This document shows, piece by piece, positions 5,180 to 26,928 of a stretch of DNA of 35,779 nucleotides; position 1 is the first letter of the stretch; every line of letters begins with the position of its first letter. This stretch comes from a virus: positions 1-35,779 of IMG/VR virus record IMGVR_UViG_3300031565_000176; one strand, given 5' to 3'. The notes beneath the pieces are model-generated. The model had not been told where the DNA came from. It saw only the letters and a program-made list of their open reading frames with translations, and did not search any database. Position numbers and translations under genes: made by a program.

Positions 5180-5398
5180 TTACTTAAAATAAACCTTTGC
5201 ACCTTTGGAAATAATCACTTTCACAACTGTTCCCAGCCCGCCTCCCCACGCAGACATCCTGCCTTCTATAACTATATCTTTATCAGTTACCCATACTTCA
5301 GGATAGGTGGGGATAGATATAATCTTCCAAGCCATATTTGCTTGGGCGTAGAATATAAAACATAAGAATAATAGTATTGAGATTAGGATTGTTTTCAT
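5180..5398 (-). CDS. 72-aa exported small protein
   Basis: ATG 5398 overlaps the stop of the beta-helix gene (TAATG). Residues 1-20 are a Sec signal peptide ending 'FYAQA'. The mature part is about 52 residues, with beta-prone segments and a Gly-rich turn 'SAWGGGLGTVV'. No family recognised. It continues the run of exported products of this region. Confidence 0.6.
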   Translation of the reverse strand: MKTILISILLFLCFIFYAQANMAWKIISIPTYPEVWVTDKDIVIEGRMSAWGGGLGTVVKVIISKGAKVYFK

Positions 5399-6834
5399 TA
5401 TTGTTTTCCGAACCATCCGAATGCTCCTCCACCTGCTCCTGCCGCCGTAACATCATCTTGGTCTGCTCCGATGTTTATTTTGTAATCTCCTGTCATATTT
5501 CCTGCCGCAAGAACATTTCCAAATTGTAGTCCTGCGTCTAAACAGGGGCTTCCAGCCAGTAAAGTGAAATCAGGCGTAGCCGCAGAGGGGTCGGTCATAG
5601 TCGCACTTGCGTCAACCTTATTAGCCCCAGCAGTTACATTAGTCCTCGTCGGCGTTGCTCCACCCCAGCAGTTGTGGTCAAAATAACTATTATTTTGTTC
5701 AGTATCCCAAGAGGCTTCTGTTGTACAACCTTCTATAATATTGTTAATTACCCTAATGTGTTCTCCCGTAGTTCCTGATATTCCTGTAGTGCAGTTGTAT
5801 ATAGTATTATTTACAAATACTCCTCCAGCCTGAGCTATTACGTCTATTCCAGTCGTGCAAGTATCAATGATATTATTGATAAGGGCTGTTGTAGCGAAAC
5901 CTCCTCCTATCCCAGTAGTTGAGTCGTGAGCATAACAAGATATAACAGACATACTTCCAGTCGGTTCAAGAGCAACACCATTAGTAGATACGCCTTCACA
6001 ATCTATTATTAAACAGTTATAAGCAAAAATACCAGAACGGCCAGCGCTTTCACTACTATTATAACCATAGCAGTTTTTGAAATATCCATAATAACCCATA
6101 TTCAAACCGTCATATTCAGTTGAATTTACTCTTAGATTTTCAACTATCCAGTATCGGTAAAAATCAAATAAATTTGCCCCTGCCTCAATTAAAGGTCTAT
6201 CCGTTCCCGTTGGATTATCCCCTCTTGTGGAGTCATACCCATCAACAAAAAAAGGAGCTACAGCAGTTCCTGTTTGGGTATTGGAAATACTTTCTCCTAT
6301 AGTGTGTGTATTTCCTGCTCCACCACCGCTGATGTAGACTGTATTTCCTGCTGTTAAGGCTTCAAAAAAGTCATCATCTAAAGCACTACCTAAAGCAAGA
6401 CACCCACCGACATTACCCGTTGCGGCAGTCATATTCTGTCCACCAACAGCACAGGTGCGGTCTATAACTACGGTGTTTCCGTTAGTATAAGCAGTTATCT
6501 CATACCACCCGACTGTAGCTTGTGTTCCTGATACGATATGAATAACATTGCCTATCATCGCCTCGGTAAATCCACCTGTTACAGAAGTTAGGTTAGTAGC
6601 AGTATCAAGACAGGCTAAGTCGGTAAGAGTAAGTATAGGTGCACCATTAGCGGGTAACGAAGCGTGAGAATAATCTGTCCCTGCTGCCCCTGCCGTAAAT
6701 CCACCGCCGTTATTCATAGAGGCAGAGGAAGATTGCCCCGTCGTTCGAATTTCCCAAAGTATCGCTGCGTCTAAAGCAGCAAAACAAACTTTAGGGAATA
6801 GGAATAGCAGTAATATTATTAAGAGTTTTTTCAA
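5398..6834 (-). CDS. Exported right-handed parallel beta-helix protein (tailspike-like)
   Basis: 478 aa. I place the start at a TTG (6834) because GAGGAG lies 10 nt upstream and translation then begins exactly at a signal peptide ending 'FPKVCFA'. Residues from about 170 on show beta-helix rungs with recurrent 'NNTIYNCTTGI' and 'VINNIIEGCTT'-type turns. Near the end 'FTLLAGSPCLDAG' and 'INIGADQ' are typical terminal elements of secreted pectate-lyase-like repeats. Phage tailspikes often use this fold to bind or cleave polysaccharide. No catalytic residues can be assigned. A Sec signal is unusual on a virion protein, so it may instead act at the host surface. It overlaps the upstream gene by 44 nt. 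Confidence 0.75.
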   Translation of the reverse strand: MKKLLIILLLFLFPKVCFAALDAAILWEIRTTGQSSSASMNNGGGFTAGAAGTDYSHASLPANGAPILTLTDLACLDTATNLTSVTGGFTEAMIGNVIHIVSGTQATVGWYEITAYTNGNTVVIDRTCAVGGQNMTAATGNVGGCLALGSALDDDFFEALTAGNTVYISGGGAGNTHTIGESISNTQTGTAVAPFFVDGYDSTRGDNPTGTDRPLIEAGANLFDFYRYWIVENLRVNSTEYDGLNMGYYGYFKNCYGYNSSESAGRSGIFAYNCLIIDCEGVSTNGVALEPTGSMSVISCYAHDSTTGIGGGFATTALINNIIDTCTTGIDVIAQAGGVFVNNTIYNCTTGISGTTGEHIRVINNIIEGCTTEASWDTEQNNSYFDHNCWGGATPTRTNVTAGANKVDASATMTDPSAATPDFTLLAGSPCLDAGLQFGNVLAAGNMTGDYKINIGADQDDVTAAGAGGGAFGWFGKQ

Positions 6835-7327
6835 AGTTTTCTCGCTCCTCTTTTGTAAATTTCTTTTCAGGTATACCTTTAGGGTCAATGCTTACACCTG
6901 CTTTTAATCTTTGTTCTTTGTTCAAAGGTTCTTTAGGCGTTAAGTCAACATTAAGTTCCCAATCCTCCCAGTCATTCTGGACTTTTATCTTACGATTATT
7001 ACATCTTGTAATTGTGTCTTTGATAATAGTGTTTTTAATTTCATCTACATAAATGTTGTCTAAATTGCACCCGTCAAAAACAACTCCTGTCATTCCGTCG
7101 GGGAATATATCCTTTGCAACTTCACCCTCAACCCATTCTTGGTAAAAACAGGAGCCTCTGATTATAGTATTGTTAAATTCTTTCGGGTCTATATCTTTGA
7201 AGGATACATCGTGATAAGGAAAACCTTGATTAGAGTATTTAACATTAGTAGGCTTGTCATATTTCTCATTGATAGTTTCGGCAGAACAAACTCCACAAAT
7301 CAAAAGGAATATCCAGAAGTATCTCAT
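6791..7327 (-). CDS. 178-aa exported protein with pentapeptide-like turns
   Basis: ATG 7327 behind AGGAGG. Residues 1-16 are a short signal peptide ending 'CGVCSA'. The middle contains segments such as 'FNNTIIRGSCF' and 'VVFDGCNLDNIYVDEI', which resemble short beta-helix or pentapeptide-repeat coils. The C-terminus is charged and helical and carries within it the ribosome binding site of the next gene. Function unknown; it lies between two larger fibre-like exported proteins. Confidence 0.6.
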   Translation of the reverse strand: MRYFWIFLLICGVCSAETINEKYDKPTNVKYSNQGFPYHDVSFKDIDPKEFNNTIIRGSCFYQEWVEGEVAKDIFPDGMTGVVFDGCNLDNIYVDEIKNTIIKDTITRCNNRKIKVQNDWEDWELNVDLTPKEPLNKEQRLKAGVSIDPKGIPEKKFTKEERENFEKTLNNITAIPIP

Positions 7328-7335
7328 AAAACCTC

Positions 7336-9108
7336 CTATTCTGGTATGTAACCTAAAATCGTTAGTTCGTAGTAAACATCAGCATCAGCAGGGTCGGCGT
7401 CTAAGGAAATGTAAACTTTCTTCCCTGCTGGTATTATGCCGCTTCCTAAATCACTGGCCGCCATATTTGTTTCGGATGAGTTGCCTGTCGTAGTGTCTAA
7501 TGCGTCAATCAATACAGCATTACCTCCAGGGAAAGCCCCTGCTCCGTTATCATCACAATACTTAAGGTCTCCTGTCAGTTCAGTGACAGGGTCGGCAGCA
7601 TTGCACTGCACATACCATTTAGTTATCACTATGCCTGAAGGGTATCTATCAGCGTGAAGCCACATCAGAGGCCACTCTGCGTCCTCATCCCAAGCAGAAG
7701 CCAGAACCAATGAGCCGTGCCATATTTCAATGGTAGGAATTATTTTTGCTATTCCGTCGTTTACTCTTATAAAGTCCTCATCATTATGTGTTCCTATTCC
7801 TATAGGAAAAGTTAGCGTTGCACCATCATTTGAATACATTAACGGAAACCCACTGTTACCAACGCTAAATCCCGAGCCATCATCTGTTCCATAGAAGAGA
7901 GCAAAGTTATAAGTCGAGTCTGTGTGATAATGAAATCCATAGGCAGTATTATCGGCAGTAGACCTGAGATAGATACTCGGATGCCAATCCTCAATAATAA
8001 AGTCATCACTTACAACAATGTCATTTCTTGTGCTGTCGTAGGTGATATACTCATCTCCACCCCATTCAATTTTCTCATCATCAGCAAGGTTAAACTCTGC
8101 GGCAGCACAAGCACCAGTACCGAAGTCCATATCGTCGTCAGTAAGAATTGCCTCTATCTCATCGGCGGTGTCAACATTAGGGTCAAGCTCAACAATAGCT
8201 GCTGCCAAAGCCGTAGCGTCAAAGTTATCAACATCACCGTCAGCACCCGTATCTAATGCAACTATCGCGGCGTCAATATCATCCATAACATCTTGGATAT
8301 TTGTGTTTGCAGAGAAGTCAAACTCATCCGTCATAGTGATGTCATCCGCACCTACTACAGTCGCACCCATACCCCAGTTTATATGAGTATCATCTATACT
8401 GTCGGCAACATAATTATCGCTGTCTATAACAGCACCGTTGAAGTCGGTAAATGCTGTTGTGCCGTCAAGAACATTGGTATACCAGGCCTCATCGGTAAAT
8501 GAGCCATCATCATCAGCGTCAAAGTTATGCAGGTAATCATAAACATCATCTTTCTCTGGTGGCCCGACATCAGCGTTCCAACCCGCGGCATAGGCCTCAT
8601 CTACCGCCGCTCCCTCATCTCCCAGATAATCAATATCCGCCCAGTTGATATGTTCGTTGTCAATGGAGTCAGCGTTATAGTGTTCAGAGTCAACACCATC
8701 ATCAGCAATCTTTGTTTCATCTATAACATCGGCCGCCAAATGTATTGCGTCAATAGAACCATCAACATAATCATCGGAGTCAATAGAATTGTCCGCCATA
8801 TCAGCATTAGCTATGGTGTTGTTCGTAATCATAGCTGAGGTTACAGTTGCCCAAGCGGGGTCTGTGCCGTCGGTGGTGAGAACAGTAGAGGCTCCGCCTA
8901 TTGCAGTCCTTGTCCACGCAGGTGTAGCGTTGCCTGTAATTAAATCCCCTCTTACGGGAGTAGAGTCTGTCGTGTCGTTGTGTATAACACCGTCGAGCAA
9001 GGCATTAGCAGCCGCAGCAAAACGGATGATTAGGCTTTCTCCTACCGCTTGCGTAAACCAAATCCCAATGGTAAGAACAAATAAATAGATTAAGATTCTT
9101 TTTTTCAC
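7336..9108 (-). CDS. Fibre-like protein with Asp-rich repeats and signal peptide
   Basis: 590 aa from a GTG at 9108 with AAAGGAG upstream. Residues 1-23 form a signal peptide. Residues about 90-330 are very acidic and repetitive, with variants of 'NSIDSDDYVDGSID' and 'DSIDDTHINW', a pattern common in phage fibre shafts and often calcium-binding. Residues about 370-480 hold a beta-rich domain, and the end is a compact beta-sandwich-like region. Similar architectures are receptor-binding appendages. An N-terminal Sec signal is not expected for a cytoplasmically assembled fibre. Next gene starts 9 nt downstream. Confidence 0.7.
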   Translation of the reverse strand: MKKRILIYLFVLTIGIWFTQAVGESLIIRFAAAANALLDGVIHNDTTDSTPVRGDLITGNATPAWTRTAIGGASTVLTTDGTDPAWATVTSAMITNNTIANADMADNSIDSDDYVDGSIDAIHLAADVIDETKIADDGVDSEHYNADSIDNEHINWADIDYLGDEGAAVDEAYAAGWNADVGPPEKDDVYDYLHNFDADDDGSFTDEAWYTNVLDGTTAFTDFNGAVIDSDNYVADSIDDTHINWGMGATVVGADDITMTDEFDFSANTNIQDVMDDIDAAIVALDTGADGDVDNFDATALAAAIVELDPNVDTADEIEAILTDDDMDFGTGACAAAEFNLADDEKIEWGGDEYITYDSTRNDIVVSDDFIIEDWHPSIYLRSTADNTAYGFHYHTDSTYNFALFYGTDDGSGFSVGNSGFPLMYSNDGATLTFPIGIGTHNDEDFIRVNDGIAKIIPTIEIWHGSLVLASAWDEDAEWPLMWLHADRYPSGIVITKWYVQCNAADPVTELTGDLKYCDDNGAGAFPGGNAVLIDALDTTTGNSSETNMAASDLGSGIIPAGKKVYISLDADPADADVYYELTILGYIPE

Positions 9109-9692: not shown

Positions 9693-11624
9693 TTATAATG
9701 TTTCTCCCAATTTATCGCTCGTGTATTTAATACAAATCCCGTGCAGTTCTGCTGTGTCCGTTAAATCGTCAGCCCCATCGGCTCCCAATCTTTTTAATCT
9801 GCAATGAATGCAAGCATCGGTTGCTCCTGGCAAATCTATTCCCGTAATCTCTGCTGTAATGAACCCGTTTGCCTGTGCTATCGCATTAGAGTTAACTGTT
9901 AAAGTTTCCTGTGCTGCCGCAGTTGTATCTTCTCCTGGAGCGGTATAAAGATATTCTAATTGCCATACTGCTGTTTCCGTGGTAACTGTTGTGTTTGTAG
10001 ACCACCCTATATCAAACGAAGGTGCTACAGTTTTATCCATATCAGAAGGGACTTGTAAATTAAAAACTATCGTATCATCATCTGCATCTGAAAACTCCCA
10101 TACTCCACTTATTCCCCATTCTTTAAATGTTGCTGGTTTGGTTCCTGGTTCTTTCAGAGCATTAAAGGGAAACCAACGAGTTTTTATTACCCTTGCTGTG
10201 CCTGCTAAAGTAAATTCGCCATCATCAGCAAACTGGGCATAATTCGTAGCCCCCCCGTCATCTCCTATAACTACTGTATTAGCATCAAGTATTATATCGT
10301 CAGTAGCGGCATTAGAATTACCCACGATATTTAAACTATCCCCATCGTGTTCTACATAACCGTCCTGCCACTCCCCCCAGTAAATCTTTTGTGAGTCGCC
10401 GTCTAATTGCCAGTCAGCCCCAGAGAGGTCAACAATACCCCAATTACTATCACACCCTGAAGAACCAGCTATCTGTATTGCTCTGGCTACTGAAGTTGAT
10501 GAACCTCCTTCTGTCGCACCGTCAACATCTATTCTTAGCCCCACCGCCTGGACTAATACATTTCCACTTACTAAGTTAGCGTTCCAATTTACATCAATAT
10601 CAGCACCAAGAGCAATGCCCTGACAATTATTTCCTCCTGCGCTTGTGTCGGAAATTGTGGGGTTTCCATCCACTCTTGAATAAAGTCCTACCCAGTTAAA
10701 CCAGTTCTCGCCTGTGTTGCTTGTGTCCATAGCGGAGTCATTATCCAGATGATTATAACTCCCATACTGGTATTGATAAGTAAAGGGAGCCACTAAATTA
10801 TTGGTCATTGTTGAGTCATCGTTAACCTTATTTATAATTCCATAAGTATATTGAGTTCCATTGACATTGGCATTAGTATGCTTGGGGCAAACATTATTCT
10901 GTATTCCTGCGTAGTTTGCCAGATTGCCTGTCCCAACATTCAAGTCCCTAATCATCTCTAAAGTTATCCCAGTAGCAGATGTTGTATAGTCAGTGGTACT
11001 TCCGTCAATATAAATAGCCCTTGTGTCGTCAGCGGCTAATGTTAAATCAAACAGATAAGCAGGGGTAGCTCCTATGCCTGTATCAGCCATTACTGTCAGG
11101 GTAGGTGCACCTGTCCTGCCATTAAAGGTTATATACTTCCCAGCCGTAGTAGAGTAAACAGAAAAGTCAAGGGCATCTGAACCACCATCGGCAGAGCCTA
11201 CCTTAAAGTATGTATCGTCGGTATTTACATAGCGGCCAAGGTAAATATCTCTTACATATCCAGTATTGCTTGCTACATCATAGGTTTCATTGGCGGTGAA
11301 GTAGATATTTCGTAAGGAGAGGTCGCCGGTGAGGGGATCATTGGAGGCGTCGAGTTTGAGATAAGTAGTAGGTAAACTTCCACCAACAAAGTCAATAGAG
11401 AGGGTTCCATCGGCATTAGCAGTTAAAGAGGTATTGGGATAGATATATTTCCAGTAGTATCCGGAGGGTGAAGTATCTACTTCTTCGGCCTGTGGGCGGG
11501 CACGGCTAATAGGTTGTGCAGAAATATCTTGACAGGAGAGGGTGAGGGAGAGTATGATTAGGGGGATGAGAATTAAAGATTTTTTAATAAAGGTAATTTT
11601 ATTGCTTTTGATAGCACACCTCAT
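9693..11624 (-). CDS. Large fibre-like protein with N-terminal export or lipoprotein signal
   Basis: 643 aa from ATG 11624. Residues 1-14 are basic, 15-30 hydrophobic, and Cys31 follows 'LSLTLS', giving a possible but imperfect lipobox; a signal peptidase I site near 'ISAQP' is the alternative. After residue 75, 'LKLDASNDPLTGDLSLRNI' is the standard phage fibre shaft start. Residues 150-480 show the repeated beta-strand pattern of metagenomic tail fibres ('WGIVDLSGADWQLDGD'). The last 160 residues look like a globular beta-sandwich tip. It probably recognises a surface ligand. As with its neighbours, the export signal is the odd feature. Confidence 0.7.
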   Translation of the reverse strand: MRCAIKSNKITFIKKSLILIPLIILSLTLSCQDISAQPISRARPQAEEVDTSPSGYYWKYIYPNTSLTANADGTLSIDFVGGSLPTTYLKLDASNDPLTGDLSLRNIYFTANETYDVASNTGYVRDIYLGRYVNTDDTYFKVGSADGGSDALDFSVYSTTAGKYITFNGRTGAPTLTVMADTGIGATPAYLFDLTLAADDTRAIYIDGSTTDYTTSATGITLEMIRDLNVGTGNLANYAGIQNNVCPKHTNANVNGTQYTYGIINKVNDDSTMTNNLVAPFTYQYQYGSYNHLDNDSAMDTSNTGENWFNWVGLYSRVDGNPTISDTSAGGNNCQGIALGADIDVNWNANLVSGNVLVQAVGLRIDVDGATEGGSSTSVARAIQIAGSSGCDSNWGIVDLSGADWQLDGDSQKIYWGEWQDGYVEHDGDSLNIVGNSNAATDDIILDANTVVIGDDGGATNYAQFADDGEFTLAGTARVIKTRWFPFNALKEPGTKPATFKEWGISGVWEFSDADDDTIVFNLQVPSDMDKTVAPSFDIGWSTNTTVTTETAVWQLEYLYTAPGEDTTAAAQETLTVNSNAIAQANGFITAEITGIDLPGATDACIHCRLKRLGADGADDLTDTAELHGICIKYTSDKLGETL

Positions 11625-18139: not shown

Positions 18140-18711
18140 GATAATTGCTCCAAAGTTATATAAAGGTCAAACTCCGCCCCTCCCGCTATCCCTACCGCCG
18201 TAACAGTATAGGTAATGGCTACCGCTGTTGCCTGAATAAAAGTTACTCCAGAAGATGCCTCACCTAATACCGTTAAATCAACATCTACTGCGGGCTTAGT
18301 CGTTTGAGCTTGGGTGTTATCACTCCAACCAATCGTAACGGCCAAAACGCCTCCCGTTCCCGCCTTAGAACACAAAGAATACACCGAAACTTCATAAGTC
18401 CCCGCAGCCGACGGGGTAAATAAAGTCGTCGCCCCAATCGCCGCTAATTGCCCCGTCAAAGAAGCCGTCGCCACCATAGGGGTCAGATAATTCCAAGTAC
18501 TATTCGTAGGGTCGTAAAAGTATAACCTTTTTATCTTGCCCGATATATATAATGAATGTTCCCCGTCATCTCCCGTATGAGTAGGCACAGATGTAATTAT
18601 TTGCATTTGATACCTGCCAAGATTGATTATTTGGGTAATGTCGTTCATAAAATCAAGCAAGGCAGTATCTTTACGTAATTGACGACTTAATTCGTAACCC
18701 TGGAGTTTCAT
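18136..18711 (-). CDS. 191-aa appendage or nozzle-associated structural protein
   Basis: ATG 18711 overlaps the stop of the nozzle gene. The N-terminal 45 residues are helical; from about residue 70 the protein is Thr/Ala/Gly-rich with alternating strands ('AGTYEVSVYSLCSKAG'), as in small beta-sandwich virion proteins. The compact gene order places it with the tail. It could be a fibre adaptor or tip protein. No named family. Confidence 0.55.
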   Translation of the reverse strand: MKLQGYELSRQLRKDTALLDFMNDITQIINLGRYQMQIITSVPTHTGDDGEHSLYISGKIKRLYFYDPTNSTWNYLTPMVATASLTGQLAAIGATTLFTPSAAGTYEVSVYSLCSKAGTGGVLAVTIGWSDNTQAQTTKPAVDVDLTVLGEASSGVTFIQATAVAITYTVTAVGIAGGAEFDLYITLEQLS

Positions 18712-21431
18712 TATGCGGTAGCCCTATCTCCCAGATCCACGCCCAATTCCTTCCCGTGCAACTCAAGCGAATAAATAGTCGGTGCGGGGTTTTTGGAGTT
18801 CTCGGTTATTTTTACCTGAAACATATTCTCTATCGTTCCAATATCAAACATTGAAGTCTTGCCGAAAGCAAATTCGTCGTTATGGTCATAATTAAAATTA
18901 GTAGAACCCAGCCAAGACACATTCCAGTCAAGGCGGTATTTCACATTCATATTTATTGTAGAGGCAGAGGTTACTTCTTTATGGTTTATTCCCAGTAATA
19001 ACAACCTATTTAATAACCCTATTGCTTTAGGCTTTGCTTTACCTGATACCCAATAGGCATTTATTGCTGTGCCATCGTCATCATTGCCGCTTTCCATTCC
19101 CCACATATAGCCCGTATATCCTGCGGTGTAAAGTATCCTTGCTTTACTTGTAGACATCATATATAAACTGCTTGAGAATATCTGCCCGTCATAGGGATAA
19201 ATCCCACCAGTTTTGTAATCAAAAACAAAACCATATTTAACTGTAGTATCCCCGTTTAAGACACAATATAAAATATACTCAAAACTATCGCTTTTCACTA
19301 CTGCGTGGAATTTGTCAATATAGGTATAGTCCATATCAGCAAAGGTAATCGGCTGGTCGTCGGCTGCGGCAAATAAATCATTGCTTTCTTCTGTGGTTGT
19401 ATCGTGGACTATCTGGACATTATATCCGTCAAATATGGCTAATTTTTTATCAGTTGTAGGAAAGATAAGCACCGAACCAACTTCACCCCCCATATCAACT
19501 TCTTTTATACAGAAATGAGACGGACAGCCCAATCCTAATATTTGGTCAACCTGAAAAGTGGGGTTAGAGCCTAAATAGCTTACCCTGTGGGCAGAATACC
19601 GCTTGAACACATATAGCTTGCCTTTTAGCGTTCTTATGCCGGTAATAACATCGCCATCATTCGTATCAAAGTTAAGAGTATTCCCAGCAGGCCAAGTGCC
19701 ATAAGTTGACAAAGTGCAATATCTTATTTGATTGGGGCTTCCTCTTATTCCAGCAAGAAAAACATATTTTTTCCATATTGTTACAAATTTTCCCAATGGT
19801 GCGGCGGCAACTTCAGAAGCATCGCCTGTTCCCACATAAGTATAAAGCCCAATATCGGTATTGAGTAAAGCTCTGCCTGACTGCCAGTCGCCAAATGTCC
19901 AAAAACGAGATGAGGTTAAAGATAAAGCACCTGCAGAATAGGCGGCAGCGGGTGGCGTAAAATTTGCAGTCCAACGAGCTATGCCTTTACTTATTCTAAT
20001 TTCATCAAGCCAGCCATTAAAGAAATTTGCGGCAGTAGTATCTGTCCCAATATATAAAAGACCAGCATTATCATCAATAGGGTCTGCATCAGTAGCAGTT
20101 GTGCCTTGTTGAACTCCGCCTTGAAACCAATAAAAATTATTGCCATTTCTCGCAAATGCAATATGATACCAAGTGTTTACTACTAAACCACTTGAATCTT
20201 TAAATATTTCTATAGTATCACTACCTCCAACCCTATTGCCAAATCTCCAAGAATAAGTCCCAGCAGTATTATATAAATATATTCTCCAAAAATTAGCTGC
20301 ATTTGCATATTGAGAAACTATTACCTGCCAGGTAGTAGTAGCAGGCAACGTATCGAACCTAACCCAAAAATCTATCGTAAAATCCCCTGTGCCAAAATAC
20401 CAGTCAGCGTGGTCAGGAGTGCTGAGGTAATCGCCTGTGCCGTCAAATAACCCAGAGGCAGTCCCAAACTTTTGTTGGGCTGTACTTAATTGAGCACCAC
20501 CAGCGGCAGTCATTGTTTTGCCTATCTCATCGGTAAAAGTAGTAGACGTATTCGCACCGTCGCAATGAAGCATTAACTTTGTATATGTGTCCCAAACCGA
20601 ACCTCCACTCACACTATCCCAAGTCCCGTCGGGTGCACCTGTAGAACTTTTATCCATTTTATAAAGAGTAGTGCCCCATATCCCTAACATCATATTTTTT
20701 GAGGAAAAATCCCACAGGGCAGTCCCGTCATTCCCGCCCGCTCCTCCTGAAATATATACCTCAAAGCAAGCGTCATAATTAGGATCTGTTACCCAAGTAG
20801 TGCCATCTTCAAGGCTCATTGAACCATCAGGATATACCACATCATAATCATCTACGCCCCAATGGACATAGTTTACGGCACTAATCGTAAACCTCCCCGT
20901 TAGAACTAAATGGTATTGTGTTCCAGCCGTAAGGGAAGGATTGGTAGCAAAGGTAAAAGTTATCCAAGCATAGGTTGTAGCCAAGTCATCGGTGTCAATA
21001 GCGGTAGCTGTCCCGTTTGTTACAGGAGTCCCAGAAGGCACTCCAGAGCTATTTGGATGTATTTCAAGAGCAATATCGTGATTTGCCCCCGCAGGAGCTC
21101 CTACCTTCTTTAACCATAATTTTACTTTAGTTACACTGCCAGTAGTCGCTGGTTTAAATCCTTGAGATATTTCTGTATTTGCCGCAGTATCCCTTAAAGG
21201 ATAGTTATAAGTCTGATACCCAGGAGGATAAAAAACATCAAGACCATCGCTTTCTACGGTAGAGGAATTTATCTTCGCAAATCCGCCTCTCTTAATTAGC
21301 CTATTCCCAAGCCCGGCACAATGCCAATTCCTCATATTAGGGCTTTTATTAAGAGGCATAGAGATAATGGGAGTTTTTGTATCTTCGCCCCCGGAAAAGT
21401 CATCTATTAAAGTAATCTGCTTACGTATCAC
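18711..21431 (-). CDS. Tail nozzle-type protein with two inserted lectin-like domains
   Basis: 906 aa, GTG start at 21431. The opening 'DDFSGGEDTKTP', 'NKSPNMRNWHCAGLG' and 'LIKRGGFAKI' is the signature of podovirus nozzle or tail-tube B-like proteins. About residues 75-230 form a beta-sandwich like cell-surface anchor-associated domains ('SVTKVKLWLKKVG', 'LTAGTQYHLVLTG'). About residues 285-485 form a LamG/concanavalin-A-like domain ('LMLHCDGAN', 'GDYLSTPDHADW', 'FNGWLDEIRISKGIARW'). The remainder (490-900) is beta-propeller-like with repeated 'GKLYVFKRYSAH'-type blades. The two insertions may bind glycans. Nozzle identity is good, ligand unknown. Confidence 0.75.
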   Translation of the reverse strand: MIRKQITLIDDFSGGEDTKTPIISMPLNKSPNMRNWHCAGLGNRLIKRGGFAKINSSTVESDGLDVFYPPGYQTYNYPLRDTAANTEISQGFKPATTGSVTKVKLWLKKVGAPAGANHDIALEIHPNSSGVPSGTPVTNGTATAIDTDDLATTYAWITFTFATNPSLTAGTQYHLVLTGRFTISAVNYVHWGVDDYDVVYPDGSMSLEDGTTWVTDPNYDACFEVYISGGAGGNDGTALWDFSSKNMMLGIWGTTLYKMDKSSTGAPDGTWDSVSGGSVWDTYTKLMLHCDGANTSTTFTDEIGKTMTAAGGAQLSTAQQKFGTASGLFDGTGDYLSTPDHADWYFGTGDFTIDFWVRFDTLPATTTWQVIVSQYANAANFWRIYLYNTAGTYSWRFGNRVGGSDTIEIFKDSSGLVVNTWYHIAFARNGNNFYWFQGGVQQGTTATDADPIDDNAGLLYIGTDTTAANFFNGWLDEIRISKGIARWTANFTPPAAAYSAGALSLTSSRFWTFGDWQSGRALLNTDIGLYTYVGTGDASEVAAAPLGKFVTIWKKYVFLAGIRGSPNQIRYCTLSTYGTWPAGNTLNFDTNDGDVITGIRTLKGKLYVFKRYSAHRVSYLGSNPTFQVDQILGLGCPSHFCIKEVDMGGEVGSVLIFPTTDKKLAIFDGYNVQIVHDTTTEESNDLFAAADDQPITFADMDYTYIDKFHAVVKSDSFEYILYCVLNGDTTVKYGFVFDYKTGGIYPYDGQIFSSSLYMMSTSKARILYTAGYTGYMWGMESGNDDDGTAINAYWVSGKAKPKAIGLLNRLLLLGINHKEVTSASTINMNVKYRLDWNVSWLGSTNFNYDHNDEFAFGKTSMFDIGTIENMFQVKITENSKNPAPTIYSLELHGKELGVDLGDRATA

Positions 21432-22150
21432 TTATAATCCTGTTGCGGATGTTGCCTGTTTACTCCGCTTAAAATACCAAATGAAGGTTTACCCGCTTTT
21501 CTTTTCATTCCCCTGAAATGTATATCGCTGACGAATGTTTTGTTCATTTCGACTTCCGCTTTCGCAAAGTAAGCGGTTGAACCCTGATAATCCCCTTGCT
21601 TTAGGAGTAACTCCGATACAGCATAATAGACTAATGCCATTTGGTTATTGGTATTGGGAATTTCTGGAACAGCTGCATCTAATACTAATTCAGCAGGTTT
21701 TTTGTCGTAGTCTATGTAAATGGTTGAATGTTGCGCAATAAATCCAGAAGAAGGACGGGGAGAAAAATAAACCTTCGTAGCACCACTTATATCAAGAAAT
21801 GCGCATATTGCAGGAGTGCTATCAGAGTCGTCATCTACTTTTTCTGCCCACTCTTGCTCGCTGACTATTCTAATTTCCTGCTCTGCGCCATTTAAGATAT
21901 AGTAACACCTGACAGGGTAATTAAAACCCGTTAGAGATGCCCCAGTTAAAACATAGGCTTGCGTAGAAACAACAGGAGTTATCTCTCCTGTCCGTCTAAG
22001 AGCAAGCCAACGCCTGCTTGCGGCTATCTTGCGCAAGGCGTCATTGACCGCCACCTTTGCTTTAGTTGCCGAGCCTGTAATGTTTGTTATGTTTGCGTAG
22101 TCCTGAACTCTGGCATAAATTTCACTGTATTCCAAGCCGTATGTAGCCAT
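21428..22150 (-). CDS. Head-tail adaptor (tail tubular A-like) protein
   Basis: 240 aa from ATG 22150. The helical start 'YSEIYARVQDYANIT' and 'KVAVNDALRKIAASRRW' matches the adaptor bundle of podovirus connector proteins (gp4/gp11-like), followed by a beta domain and a C-terminal helix pair. It lies just before the nozzle gene, overlapping its start by 4 nt, as adaptor genes usually do. It would form a ring under the portal. Assignment rests on pattern and order. Confidence 0.7.
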   Translation of the reverse strand: MATYGLEYSEIYARVQDYANITNITGSATKAKVAVNDALRKIAASRRWLALRRTGEITPVVSTQAYVLTGASLTGFNYPVRCYYILNGAEQEIRIVSEQEWAEKVDDDSDSTPAICAFLDISGATKVYFSPRPSSGFIAQHSTIYIDYDKKPAELVLDAAVPEIPNTNNQMALVYYAVSELLLKQGDYQGSTAYFAKAEVEMNKTFVSDIHFRGMKRKAGKPSFGILSGVNRQHPQQDYK

Positions 22151-22218: not shown

Positions 22219-22542
22219 TCAGAGTTCATAAGTGCAGACAAGTTTACTATCATTAAGACCTGTTTTTATTGCCCTAAAATTCTTCATATTTTTAAGACCT
22301 TCTATATAAAGCGTATCAAATGGATTTAGAGGGTGTCCTAAATCAAGCAATGGGGCTGTGCCGTCGTAAGTAAATCTGCACTGGGCAGTTTCAACTGTGA
22401 TATAAATACGCTTGGGTGGAACGGCTGTATTTAATTTACTGGCTGTAAAACCCACACCCCCCACGGTATCACCAACAGTTATGTCCTCACGATCATATCC
22501 CTTGTGCTTGCCTATAACCGCTAATCTTGCGTCAAATGACAT
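22219..22542 (-). CDS. 107-aa small virion protein
   Basis: ATG 22542 overlaps the coiled-coil gene by 11 nt. It is beta-rich ('KRIYITVETAQCRFTYDG', 'DTLYIEGLKNMKNFRAI'), a composition and size common among small head-decoration or tail proteins that adopt a single beta-sandwich. It lies directly upstream of the adaptor gene, separated by 68 nt containing opposing -10 sequences. No named family. Confidence 0.55.
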   Translation of the reverse strand: MSFDARLAVIGKHKGYDREDITVGDTVGGVGFTASKLNTAVPPKRIYITVETAQCRFTYDGTAPLLDLGHPLNPFDTLYIEGLKNMKNFRAIKTGLNDSKLVCTYEL

Positions 22543-22966
22543 CTTTTATCATCCCTATTATTTTGGTTAGTTTAGCTTTTATCTCCTCGGTAGCTTCTTT
22601 ACTGGCCAGCAAATTCTTTTCTTTGCCCTCATTAGACTTAATTAAATTATCAGCCTGTCGTTCTCTTTCCTCGGCTTGCCCTATCTTTCCTTTGAGTTCG
22701 CTTTCTAACTTTACAATCTTGCCTTCTCTTTCTTTGGCTCTAGCAATAATTCCCTTGGCTTGTGTTTTAGTGTCGGCAAGCAGTTTCTCATTATCCTTTT
22801 TTATCCCAATGCCTTTTTGCACTAAATCAGAAAGTTTTTTGGTTTCTGAGTTTATTTCGATAGTTACATTTTTCTTGACAGTTCCAAGACGGGTAACTTC
22901 CTTTTTAAGAAGTTTGTAATCTACGAAACTTACCTCTTCCTCTTTTTCCTTTAATCTTGTGGTCAT
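22532..22966 (-). CDS. 144-aa coiled-coil protein
   Basis: ATG 22966 overlaps the zinc-finger gene stop by 4 nt. Nearly the whole protein is charged K/E/A/L heptads ('GIIARAKEREGKIVKLESEL', 'KGKIGQAEERERQADNLI'), with no aromatic core. It would form a long helical rod. Position between head and tail genes suggests an assembly factor or minor virion component, but this is inference. Confidence 0.65.
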   Translation of the reverse strand: MTTRLKEKEEEVSFVDYKLLKKEVTRLGTVKKNVTIEINSETKKLSDLVQKGIGIKKDNEKLLADTKTQAKGIIARAKEREGKIVKLESELKGKIGQAEERERQADNLIKSNEGKEKNLLASKEATEEIKAKLTKIIGMIKDVI

Positions 22967-23292
22967 TTTCCCCCCTTATGTTTCCGTGAGTGCACAATAA
23001 GGCCATAAGGACTCCTCGCCTTAAATCTGCATATATCACAGATAACCTTAGTAGATTTTTCTTTTGGTTTGGGTTCTTCTGGTTTCGTATGTATCACAGT
23101 AGTCATAGTCATTTCTGACTTTTCTAAAATCGGCGCAGGAATAAACTCATTCGTCTGCTTAACGAAATACCACGCCCCGAGTGGAACAGATGCAGTAAAG
23201 TTATTCTCTTTGTTAAAAACATACCTGACTCTATTGAAGTAAAGTTTAGATAATGATTTCCCTCCTGTGTAACGAATTATTATACTTTCCAT
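22963..23292 (-). CDS. 109-aa phage head-region protein with C-terminal C2H2 zinc finger
   Basis: I choose ATG 23292 because GGAGGAG lies just upstream; the longer frame to 23442 runs inside the membrane-protein gene. Residues 1-55 ('IIIRYTGGKSL', 'FNRVRYVFNKENNF', 'WYFVKQTNEFIPA') resemble a small protein often encoded near phage capsid genes. A Lys/Glu/Pro linker follows. The end 'CDICRFKARSPYGLIVHSRK' plus H is a classical C-x2-C-x12-H-x3-H finger. Such a complete eukaryotic-style finger is uncommon in phage head modules. It could bind nucleic acid or simply stabilise the fold. Confidence 0.65.
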   Translation of the reverse strand: MESIIIRYTGGKSLSKLYFNRVRYVFNKENNFTASVPLGAWYFVKQTNEFIPAPILEKSEMTMTTVIHTKPEEPKPKEKSTKVICDICRFKARSPYGLIVHSRKHKGGK

Positions 23293-24383
23293 CTTTTTTC
23301 TCCTCCTCCTCCTTGTAATTGGATTTCCAATAGTGCAAACATTGTTATAATAACGATAGCGATTCTCGGAGACTGCCCAATCCCTGAGAATATCGGAGCC
23401 ATCGGCGAATGGGACAAACAAATTGCGGATGCAACAATACAACCCGCAAAAACGGTATTTAAAAGGAGAGTTTTGTCCGCCCTCCTATATCTTTTGACTT
23501 TATTGCAGAAAAATATAAATAAAAATATACATCCAACAATCCCCACGCAAAGTCCAAATTCCAAATAATCATTATACAGACGATCTGCCGTGCCATATTG
23601 AGGCCAGCAGAATTCATCTGTCATACCGAATATGCTTCCAAAACCCCAACCTTGAAGCGGCTTATCAAATATCAATTCCAATGCCTTTTTCCAAATCGTA
23701 GTCCGCATTATTAACTTGCGAAGAAGCTGGTCGCGGAAGTGGACGATAAAAATAGTCATTCCGGAAAGTATCGCCAAAAAATGAATCGAGCCAAACCTTT
23801 TTTTTGCAGCAATAAACGCCAAACCTACCACCGTAGCCATTCCAGCGGTAGCGGATTTTGAAAGAACCAAGCCCATAACAGGAAAAATCGCCATCAACGG
23901 GTGCAGATAGAGTGCTATGGGAAAAATTATCGCCTGAAAATCCCCGTGAAACGCCGAAGTTCCCATAAAAGCACAGGATCCAGAAGAAGTATCATACACA
24001 AAATCAAGTCCGAACCTCTGAGAAAGACCTAAGATGGCATTTATTGCTGAAAGTAAAACCAAAGTCTTTAGAATACACCGGACATTCTTGGCATAACAGA
24101 CAATCAGGTAATAAAGCAACAGCAAAAAGACTATGTTTACCAATGCCATCCGGCTGTAAGGCGTCGGAGCGATAAAGATATTCAAGAAACAAACAAAACC
24201 CAGTGCAAATAACGTCTTGTCTTTCAGGTCTCTCTGCTTCTTTTGAGAAAGAGCCACAAAGAAAAGGAATATCACCCCAAGTTGAAAGAATTGAAGCTGT
24301 GTTTGCGCCAAAGGTAAATTTCCCCAATAAAAAATAGGGGCAAGAAATAGAAAGACCTTTAACACAAAGTCAAAACTATTCAT
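23280..24383 (-). CDS. O-antigen polymerase/ligase-like (Wzy/WaaL family) membrane protein
   Basis: 367 aa, ATG 24383, overlapping the previous gene by 8 nt. About ten hydrophobic spans cover the sequence, with a large periplasmic loop in the C-terminal half. In that loop 'RTTIWKKALELIFDKPLQGW' followed by GFGS, and later 'YNDYLEFGLCVGIVG', match the conserved motifs of the Wzy_C family, which polymerises O-antigen repeats or ligates them to lipid A core. Phage-borne O-antigen polymerases are known in serotype conversion (for example in phage D3). Here it lies inside the late structural operon. Predicted role: altering host surface polysaccharide late in infection, perhaps to block re-adsorption. 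Family call good, activity unproven. Confidence 0.8.
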   Translation of the reverse strand: MNSFDFVLKVFLFLAPIFYWGNLPLAQTQLQFFQLGVIFLFFVALSQKKQRDLKDKTLFALGFVCFLNIFIAPTPYSRMALVNIVFLLLLYYLIVCYAKNVRCILKTLVLLSAINAILGLSQRFGLDFVYDTSSGSCAFMGTSAFHGDFQAIIFPIALYLHPLMAIFPVMGLVLSKSATAGMATVVGLAFIAAKKRFGSIHFLAILSGMTIFIVHFRDQLLRKLIMRTTIWKKALELIFDKPLQGWGFGSIFGMTDEFCWPQYGTADRLYNDYLEFGLCVGIVGCIFLFIFFCNKVKRYRRADKTLLLNTVFAGCIVASAICLSHSPMAPIFSGIGQSPRIAIVIITMFALLEIQLQGGGGEKRWKV

Positions 24384-24744
24384 AAAGAATCAGATATGTT
24401 CCGCTGGCAATACTTTTCCAAACATACAGCCCATTAGAAACTTCAATCGGGTATTCCAAAATAATAGTTTCGCTATTCCCGGCAGTAGCAACCTCAATCT
24501 CCAGTATTATATTTTCCTCATCCAAAGACGGCTCATATTCATCGTAAAGAGTCAAGAAGGCTCCGATTGCGTCGTGATTTATTAAACTTACCGCCCATAT
24601 TCTTGCATCGCCCCTGACTATTTGCACACTATTGTCCGTACCTACTGCTTTGGACTTCCCGATATGATCTGGTTCCATACGAGCTTCTGCTATTATCGGC
24701 AATATAAACAGCAGTATCAAAAATAGACAAAGTATTCTTTTCAT
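24376..24744 (-). CDS. 122-aa exported beta-rich protein (distant third member of the exported set)
   Basis: ATG 24744 with GGAG upstream. Residues 1-21 are a Sec signal ending 'PIIAEA'. The mature part contains 'IWAVSLINHDAIGAFLTLYD' and later strands with 'VSNGLYVWKSIASGTYLILY', matching in order the strands of the two exported paralogues just upstream, though with low identity. It follows a terminator. Function unknown; the fold is likely a small beta-sandwich like phage decoration proteins. Confidence 0.6.
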   Translation of the reverse strand: MKRILCLFLILLFILPIIAEARMEPDHIGKSKAVGTDNSVQIVRGDARIWAVSLINHDAIGAFLTLYDEYEPSLDEENIILEIEVATAGNSETIILEYPIEVSNGLYVWKSIASGTYLILYE

Positions 24745-24797: not shown

Positions 24798-25223
24798 TTA
24801 ATCTGGTTCTTGTCCTCGGTAGTGGATTACAGCATAGGCATCCGTCAAAATCACAGAAAAACCTGTTGTTAAACGAATCGGGTCGTCTCCGAAATCAATG
24901 TAATAACCTTTACCGGTTGTCGCTTCATAAATTTCAAAGACACACGTAGAGGCAGCAGTCCCTCCCATACTTCCAGCATCATATATTCCTATTGCTGATG
25001 TTCCTGCTGTCCCCGTTACGAATATCCGGTAAATGTTCACAGGTTCAGATATAGATGCGATGACATTCGTACTCGCCAACAATATATCTGTGTGCTTTAA
25101 CGGTTGATGTCGCTCTCCTGGGGCTGCTTTGTCTCTGGTGATTACAAAATCATCATCGGCAAAAGCAACAGTTGAAAGAGTTGCGATTAAACCCACTACC
25201 AAGAGGAGTAGTAATCGTTTCAT
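24798..25223 (-). CDS. Exported beta-sandwich-like protein, paralogue 2
   Basis: 141 aa, ATG 25223. Residues 1-22 are a Sec signal ending 'STVAFA'. The mature part 'VNIYRIFVTGTAGTSAIGIY' through 'FEIYEATTGKGYYIDFGDDP' and 'YAVIHYRG' aligns with paralogue 1 over its whole C-terminal 75 residues. This strand pattern is common in small phage capsid-decoration or tail proteins. Its translation start region (15 nt ending in ATG, 25235-25221) is identical to that of the major capsid gene, suggesting a similarly high output. A terminator follows directly. Confidence 0.7.
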   Translation of the reverse strand: MKRLLLLLVVGLIATLSTVAFADDDFVITRDKAAPGERHQPLKHTDILLASTNVIASISEPVNIYRIFVTGTAGTSAIGIYDAGSMGGTAASTCVFEIYEATTGKGYYIDFGDDPIRLTTGFSVILTDAYAVIHYRGQEPD

Positions 25224-25232
25224 AGTATCTCC

Positions 25233-25601
25233 TTATCGGTAATGAAGAACAATCGCACCATTAGTTACTACCAGTGAACATCCTGTATCAAACTTGAGAG
25301 GATTTTCGCCGAAGTCAATATAATGACCTTCGCCGTCGGTTGCTTCATAGATTTCTATCTCGCATCTGGCAACTGTTTCCGCTCCAAGAGTTGCTGTATC
25401 ATATAATCCAAATGTTAAACTACCCGCTGTATTGTTGACCATAATGCGATAGATATCTATGCCGTGTCCTGCAACAAGTTGATTAGATGTTAGTGCACCG
25501 GAAGTCTTTAATGGGCTCGTTCTACTGCTATCTGCGCAAGCAGAAGAGCATAATCCAACAACCAAGCCAATAACCAATAAGAAAGATAGTAACTTTTTCA
25601 T
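25233..25601 (-). CDS. Exported beta-sandwich-like protein, paralogue 1
   Basis: 122 aa from ATG 25601, chosen because AGGAGGA precedes it; the longer frame to 25703 lies inside the capsid gene. Residues 1-23 are a Sec signal ending 'CSSACA'. The mature part 'IDIYRIMVNNTAGSLTFGLY', 'CEIEIYEATDGEGHYIDFGE' and 'NGAIVLHYR' is clearly homologous to the next gene. It sits 14 nt behind the major capsid gene, where decoration proteins are often encoded, but the export signal argues for a periplasmic or surface location. Confidence 0.7.
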   Translation of the reverse strand: MKKLLSFLLVIGLVVGLCSSACADSSRTSPLKTSGALTSNQLVAGHGIDIYRIMVNNTAGSLTFGLYDTATLGAETVARCEIEIYEATDGEGHYIDFGENPLKFDTGCSLVVTNGAIVLHYR

Positions 25602-25614
25602 AGTTTCCTCCTCC

Positions 25615-26928
25615 TTAAATGGTTCCTGGGTTCTTTGCGTAGGATTTAGCCAGGAGATAATTCTTAGGAACAGAATTAGTATCCTTGACTGCCACCTGCC
25701 CAAAAATCGCTTTCACGCCGATACCATTCTCAAATCCATAATCGTAGGTTTGGGTTATGGGTGTCGGTTTCATCCCCCAGCCACGAACTGCAACTTCCGC
25801 CCCAAAGCCAATCTGAGTTGACACATTGCGAAGAGTTATCAACGCGCCTGCCGTGTGAGCTGCTGCGGTTGTCCCATTCGCACCTCTTCCACCAAGAGCA
25901 ACTGTAAAAGTGTAAGAGTTTGCCTTTGCAGTATAGGTCATTTCCTCGTTGTCAATCCTCAAAGTCCCCTCTGTAGGGAAAAACCTTAAGTAATTAGCTT
26001 TGGTGTTACTGCCTACTGTTGGATTAGTAGAAATATCAGTCATATCGGCAGATAACCGAGCTTCAGGTCTCAAAGGTGAACCCTGAACATTAAGACCAGA
26101 CTTTACTGAACGGTGAACATACAAAATACAACCATTGCATATTCCAAGTGCACCAGTAAATATCCTATTCGTTTCACCTCTAATGCCTGCATCTCGCTGT
26201 GCCTGCTGCCATACTGGATCTCCCTTCAACCAATACTCGTCAAGCTCGGAAATAACGATACCATAAGTATCTAATTCCTCGCCATTACTCATCTTGGTTG
26301 ATATAGGAATTGCCCCCTTGCGTTGTAACGCAAGTTTGATGCGGTCTATTTCCTCAGTCCCGAATGTATCGTTGACACCTAAGGCTGCTTCATTTGCGGC
26401 ATCACCGGCATAAAGAACTTCCGCATCCGTTTCGGTTGTGATTAACTGAATAAACATACTCCCATCAATATGACGGGCAACCCAGTTGGATAATCTTTGC
26501 CGTGCTACCTGAACTATGGAGAAATTAACTCGTCTCTCTAAGTTCTCGGTAAATGCCACAGCATTGCGTATCCAATCAACTGTCAGATCAAACTGACCCA
26601 TTGACAGTTTATCTTCACTACCCTCTAAGATAGTTTCGCCTGTTACTCCTGAAGAAATAAGTTGGGACATAACTTGAAAGTGAATGATGTCTCCAGGCCC
26701 TTTAGTAAAATCATCTTTGGTGATGATGGGCTTGGATGAACCTTCACGTCCCTCAAATTTTGCACCCCAAAAGGCTTTACGCATACCGTCGTCAAAAAGC
26801 CTTTTCGACCAAAACTCTGGGACTGCCTTATCAAATTCCCCAGTACCAGCAACACCAGCATCATAGGTGTGCATACTGAGCGTTACGCCTCGATTATTTC
26901 TTAGGAGATTAAATAAATACTTCCACAT
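25615..26928 (-). CDS. Major capsid protein, N4-gp56-like family
   Basis: 437 aa, ATG 26928 behind AAGGAGATACT. The start region 'VPEFWSKRLFDDGMRKAFW' is the arm signature of this capsid family, followed by 'KGPGDIIHFQVMSQLISSGV' and 'GETILEGSEDKL', the standard N-arm and E-loop pattern. 'YGIVISELDEYWLKGDPVWQ' and 'GILGICNGCILYVHRS'-like strands come from the P and A domains (the exact string reads 'GALGICNGCILYVHRS'). Length is normal for the family. It lies directly after the scaffold gene. It forms the HK97-fold shell. Confidence 0.9.
   Translation of the reverse strand: MWKYLFNLLRNNRGVTLSMHTYDAGVAGTGEFDKAVPEFWSKRLFDDGMRKAFWGAKFEGREGSSKPIITKDDFTKGPGDIIHFQVMSQLISSGVTGETILEGSEDKLSMGQFDLTVDWIRNAVAFTENLERRVNFSIVQVARQRLSNWVARHIDGSMFIQLITTETDAEVLYAGDAANEAALGVNDTFGTEEIDRIKLALQRKGAIPISTKMSNGEELDTYGIVISELDEYWLKGDPVWQQAQRDAGIRGETNRIFTGALGICNGCILYVHRSVKSGLNVQGSPLRPEARLSADMTDISTNPTVGSNTKANYLRFFPTEGTLRIDNEEMTYTAKANSYTFTVALGGRGANGTTAAAHTAGALITLRNVSTQIGFGAEVAVRGWGMKPTPITQTYDYGFENGIGVKAIFGQVAVKDTNSVPKNYLLAKSYAKNPGTI

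Follow-up and report, generated by a model that had tools for sequence, protein, structure and literature searches.

A 35,779-nucleotide stretch of viral DNA (IMG/VR record IMGVR_UViG_3300031565_000176, hereafter the window) carries an open reading frame at exactly positions 23280 to 24383 that encodes a polytopic protein of 367 residues. An earlier interpretation made from the letters alone, here called the sequence-only reading, had described this frame as an O-antigen polymerase or ligase-like gene without stating its strand. The gene lies on the minus strand, with its ATG at 24383, and a plus-strand reading is ruled out by stops all along the interval. The late structural position assigned to it, between the capsid block and the adaptor and next to exported proteins, is confirmed by the annotation of its neighbors. 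All of these are on the minus strand. The major capsid protein gene (25615-26928; Phage_capsid_3 by Pfam, phrog_334 by PHROGs) is followed by genes for three small proteins with predicted signal peptides, p1 (25233-25601), its paralogue p2 (24798-25223; 41% identity to p1), and p3 (24376-24744), which consists of a signal peptide and a β-domain of ~100 residues. The end of the p3 gene overlaps the start of the Wzy-like gene by 8 nt. Downstream lie genes for a conserved short protein that ends in a C2H2-like pattern, CxxC...H...H (22963-23292, start inferred from translation), a conserved coiled-coil-like protein (22532-22966), and the head-tail adaptor (21428-22150; SU10_adaptor, PF24175, by Pfam). 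No other O-antigen or glycan genes were seen beside the Wzy-like gene.

The N-terminus of the capsid protein (26870-26928, minus strand) resembles a prepilin motif (LLRNNRGVTL, with ERGxTLN in relatives); the resemblance is absent in some relatives, which start with MSTLN or MATLN. On the other side of the adaptor gene, positions 18711-21431 (minus strand) encode a 906-residue structural protein into which a laminin-G/concanavalin-like domain is inserted, in a region that is variable among relatives.

Family and fold of the encoded protein

Kinship with the Wzy_C/WaaL proteins, as claimed by the sequence-only reading, was supported at the level of both profile and fold. Residues 165-288 (23520-23891, minus strand) match Pfam Wzy_C (PF04932) with E=1.1e-8 and 35.5 bits, above the gathering cut-off of 31.7 bits, and an independent genome search with the whole frame gave 40.7 bits for the same family. 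The homolog from one relative, L018, also exceeds the cut-off (32.2 bits), while the remaining members of the clade fall below it (E 3.5e-4 to 1.3e-3) or give no match. Hydropathy predicts approximately nine membrane spans. An AlphaFold model built from 13 sequences, those of the window and its relatives, contains ~12 long helices (pLDDT 78, pTM 0.82). When this model was compared by Foldseek with 350,542 PDB chains there was one significant match, chain B of the WaaL structure 7TPG (E=1.3e-5, probability 1.00, TM 0.56/0.52).

Searching PDB sequences with the single protein returned chance matches only, and the family profile found 7TPG/7TPJ alone, weakly (E=0.015). Direct profile comparisons with E. 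coli WaaL and with Wzyβ of phage D3 were not significant; the WaaL assignment is therefore based on Pfam, the modeled fold, and the weak profile match to 7TPG. An unrelated polytopic family that matched better would have spoken against this assignment; NCBIfam and PHROGs offered no real competitor. The PglL_A motif (PF15864) was absent among the Pfam matches at E values up to 1.

Active-site residues

Three residues are important in both WaaL and PglL; in E. coli WaaL they are R215, R288, and H338 (PMC3643930). In the window protein, the position of the first essential arginine (SR motif) falls within SKSATA, residues 175-180 (23844-23861), and none of the 13 clade proteins has arginine there. 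The second arginine, in the R..iW motif, is present as Arg227 (23703-23705) and is kept in every clade protein. The position of the catalytic histidine (H338; H349 in PglL) is occupied by Tyr270 (23574-23576), changing HNxYL to YNxYL; tyrosine is found in 12 of the 13 proteins, comprising the whole main clade, and the sister lineage L097 keeps histidine. The simplest account is that tyrosine arose as a derived state in the main clade. The rest of the fold is kept across the clade, together with R227, W231, G245, and G247.

For comparison, a profile alignment of 39 cellular Wzy_C proteins showed the first arginine in 39/39, the second in 39/39, and the histidine in 38/39, a panel of high-scoring matches from one phylum whose choice favors canonical sequences. 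The same alignment showed all three residues in D3 Wzyβ, VarioGold p25, and E. coli WaaL. The phage protein therefore resembles WaaL (PF04932; 7TPG from C. metallidurans and the E. coli enzyme) in its modeled fold, its above-threshold Wzy_C match, the R..iW arginine, and a GxG loop, but differs in lacking the first essential arginine, in having tyrosine for histidine, in its length of only 367 residues, and in its location in a phage late operon. Because these WaaL residues have diverged, we describe the product as a WaaL/Wzy-fold protein rather than as an established ligase; it belongs to the fold and falls outside the WaaL/PglL enzymes as defined by their residues.

Conservation of the gene and its position

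Capsid and portal searches recovered approximately 20 metagenomic relatives. Every relative with the interval covered has the same order: the capsid gene, one to three genes for small signal-peptide proteins, a gene for a polytopic protein, one for a protein of ~90-100 residues, usually one for a coiled-coil protein, and the adaptor gene. The slot after the capsid and exported genes holds the Wzy-like gene or one replacement in all relatives in which the interval is intact, and a counterpart of the small gene at 22963-23292 comes after the Wzy-like gene in every relative. The CxxC...H...H ending was seen in the window and in relative L012.

The homologs at this place are 25-76% identical to the window protein, and dN/dS values of 0.10-0.15 indicate purifying selection; together these exclude a frame that is open by chance. 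Pairwise distances between the Wzy-like proteins follow those of the capsid (Mantel r=0.58, 1/2000 permutations) and the adaptor (r=0.66, 0/2000 permutations). A scan of viral contigs with the family found no member outside the present phage group, and tblastn against named phages gave no match to the Wzy-like gene or to p1. The conserved position, purifying selection, capsid- and adaptor-tracking distances, and restriction to the group identify the gene, at the level of sequence comparison, as a core, vertically inherited late gene of a group of uncultured tailed phages and not as a moron. A search of genome contigs turned up neither a prophage nor a host for the capsid clade.

The sister lineage L097, with a terminase 48% identical, has a capsid protein of the Mu gpT type that gave no significant match to the capsid profile of the clade. 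It nevertheless keeps the pair of exported protein and Wzy-like protein after this unrelated capsid gene, with a 4-nt overlap.

The exported partner proteins

The small proteins p1-p3 are paralogues with predicted Sec-type signal peptides, identified with a simple scorer, not SignalP, that was controlled with four phages (T7, N4, P22, and Skulduggery). The mature part of p1 is modeled as a β-sandwich or jelly roll with a pLDDT of 94.5. Fold comparison of the p family with the PDB gave nothing below 1e-3; close to that threshold there were only viral jelly rolls, among them the turret of HFTV1 and the jelly-roll protein of BPP-1. At E values up to 1e-3, BFVD contains 39 matches, which are small unnamed tailed-phage proteins. 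The p proteins are only mildly rich in serine and threonine, and no common sequon was found in them.

Of 14 loci, 13 show an overlap of 1, 4, or 8 nt between the last exported gene and the start of the Wzy-like gene. This arrangement suggests that the two genes are translationally coupled.

Further late-region proteins of the window carry predicted signal peptides (9693-11624, 7336-9108, 6791-7327, and 5398-6888, all minus strand), and several of them are fibre- or β-helix-like. Large late proteins of this kind are also present in several relatives, for example L043 (8433-11036) and L052 (5198-7090), and the simple scorer identified none in T7, N4, P22, or Skulduggery. A literature search on signal peptides of phage fibres gave nothing usable.

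Replacement by a TMTC-like protein

Two records, L012 and G011, lack the Wzy-like gene. The exported protein is retained in both, and each encodes a TMTC-like protein of the GT-C type that has TPRs. In L012 the TMTC-like gene occupies the slot of the Wzy-like gene. G011, a sister of L097, has an exported gene after its capsid gene, and its TMTC-like gene is found ~18 kb away from that gene, farther down the late strand. The two TMTC-like proteins are homologous (32% identity, E=3e-62). No TMTC-like gene was found in the Wzy-bearing loci examined, for which the window and five other records are complete.

In trees of the capsid and of the terminase, L012 is nested within the Wzy-bearing group. 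This position implies, on phylogenetic grounds, that the Wzy-like gene was replaced by the TMTC-like gene in the L012 lineage. An ORF of 54 residues with two predicted spans lies between p2 and the TMTC-like gene of L012 (12107-12271) and begins exactly at the usual start overlap of the Wzy-like gene; it is possibly a remnant of the displaced gene.

The TMTC-like phage proteins conserve DD and ERxxY, two motifs reported for TMTCs (PMC7801869), but lack KExxxT. In eukaryotes, TMTC1-4 attach O-linked mannose to Ig-like β-sandwich domains (PMC11292533). The TPRs, as well as the two motifs, are common to the phage proteins and these O-mannosyltransferases. Their fold subclass differs from that of the Wzy-like protein, to which they are not homologous; they represent the replacement of the gene. 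Relatives in Acidobacteria MAGs are 24-31% identical, which is too distant to name Acidobacteria as the host, and this assignment was rejected.

Possible functions of the Wzy-like protein

The reading that we favor, with a probability of about 0.4, is that the Wzy-like protein is a membrane glycosyltransferase acting in the periplasm on the co-encoded exported phage proteins. It draws on sequence, the structural model, and the order of genes along metagenomic contigs. The protein would be an inner-membrane transferase of the GT-C type with a WaaL/Wzy fold, using a lipid-linked sugar as donor at the outer face of the cytoplasmic membrane. Its partners and acceptors would be the one to three small phage proteins encoded directly upstream, which are predicted to be exported through Sec and to fold as β-sandwiches; on emerging in the periplasm they would receive sugars, or be capped with a lipid-linked glycan of the host. 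The sugar may serve shielding, attachment, or adsorption of exported decoration or fibre-like proteins. The scheme is modeled on PglL-type O-oligosaccharyltransferases that act on adjacently encoded pilins, and pglL adjoins or lies close to the genes of its pilin targets in 21 of 31 cases (PMC3643930). We favor it because the conserved partner is exported, because the pair outlasts a change of capsid gene, and because the protein has been swapped for a type of enzyme that in eukaryotes glycosylates β-sandwiches. Purifying selection on the gene and the predicted signal peptides of several large late proteins also speak for it. Against it count the loss of the first arginine and of the catalytic histidine, the missing PF15864 motif and common sequon, the loss of KExxxT from the TMTC-like proteins, and the small number of known TMTC replacements, two, with the gene ~18 kb away in one. 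The likeness to PglL, PglS, and PilO-type enzymes extends to the superfamily and to a gene next to exported candidate acceptors, but the phage protein is without PF15864 and the histidine, and its putative acceptors are β-sandwich proteins, not pilins.

The sequence-only reading had instead proposed late remodeling of host polysaccharide. Under this hypothesis, O-antigen or capsule precursors would be polymerized, ligated, or diverted late in infection so that receptors on debris and sister cells are masked and progeny are spared. The family, the late-block position, and the exported neighbors named in that reading stand; the O-antigen polymerase or ligase that remodels host polysaccharide does not find support, and we regard it as doubtful. 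The Wzy_C/WaaL fold would suit such a role, phage-borne relatives of the domain exist in D3 Wzyβ and VarioGold p25, D3 converts serotype (PMC9658991), and a GT-C protein could likewise change surface glycans. However, the gene is a core late gene inherited vertically, no further glycan genes were seen beside it, and its product lacks two of the three residues essential in WaaL, all of which D3 Wzyβ and VarioGold p25 retain. The strictly conserved exported partner is retained even after the swap for the TMTC-like enzyme, and remodeling accounts for this partner less well than does glycosylation. D3 Wzyβ and VarioGold p25 are phage-encoded polytopic Wzy_C proteins, and VarioGold has a signal-peptide gene nearby (PMC9658991), but no sequence relationship of the Wzy-like protein to either was found. 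Their genes sit in temperate conversion or moron-type modules (PMC9658991), often opposite the late genes; the sequence-only reading had noted that serotype-converting phages usually carry such genes in lysogenic modules. The present gene, in all relatives that have it, instead belongs to the late structural block and is flanked by the capsid and adaptor regions. Because most phage Wzy genes known so far are morons, one might suspect a recently acquired host metabolic gene with no fixed role that reached the late block by chance; its presence in almost every record whose interval is intact, its distances following those of capsid and adaptor, and its absence from named phages and from viral contigs outside the group make this highly improbable.

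With two key residues lost, a noncatalytic role is conceivable. A dead or repurposed WaaL-fold protein might bind lipid-linked sugars or a host Wzy, WaaL, or flippase as a dominant negative, or serve as a membrane chaperone or anchor for the exported proteins, with no sugar transfer. Absence of the first arginine from all 13 proteins and of the histidine from 12 would fit this, as would purifying selection on the remaining fold with R227, W231, G245, and G247. We consider it unlikely, since the L097 protein retains the histidine, the replacing TMTC-like proteins keep GT-C motifs, which argues for an enzymatic slot, and residues can vary within the family; the related SEDS proteins depend on an essential aspartate in the long loop (PMC10920833).

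Phage Wzy-type genes have so far been known as optional lysogenic conversion genes. The gene described here is a conserved member of a structural operon; its active site is altered, its exported partner is fixed, and a TMTC-like transferase can take its place. Should the partner prove to be the acceptor, these phages would own a periplasmic protein glycosylation system, and the means and purpose of exporting virion-like phage proteins ahead of lysis become a question. More broadly, and more tentatively, the group may export virion-like proteins (jelly-roll proteins from the genes behind the capsid gene, and fibre-like ones in several genomes) through Sec and encode its own periplasmic protein glycosyltransferase, exchangeable between the unrelated WaaL/Wzy-fold and TMTC-type GT-C families. 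The loci would offer small putative enzyme-acceptor pairs that are directly testable.

Other features of these genomes

Insertions interrupt the terminase genes of L012 (3639-6092) and L097 (3615-6155), and the capsid gene of L014 (3093-5058) is interrupted by an insertion with an endonuclease-like ORF. The window also encodes a TROVE/vWA, Ro60-like protein at 784-2115 on the minus strand (Pfam E=1.5e-25).
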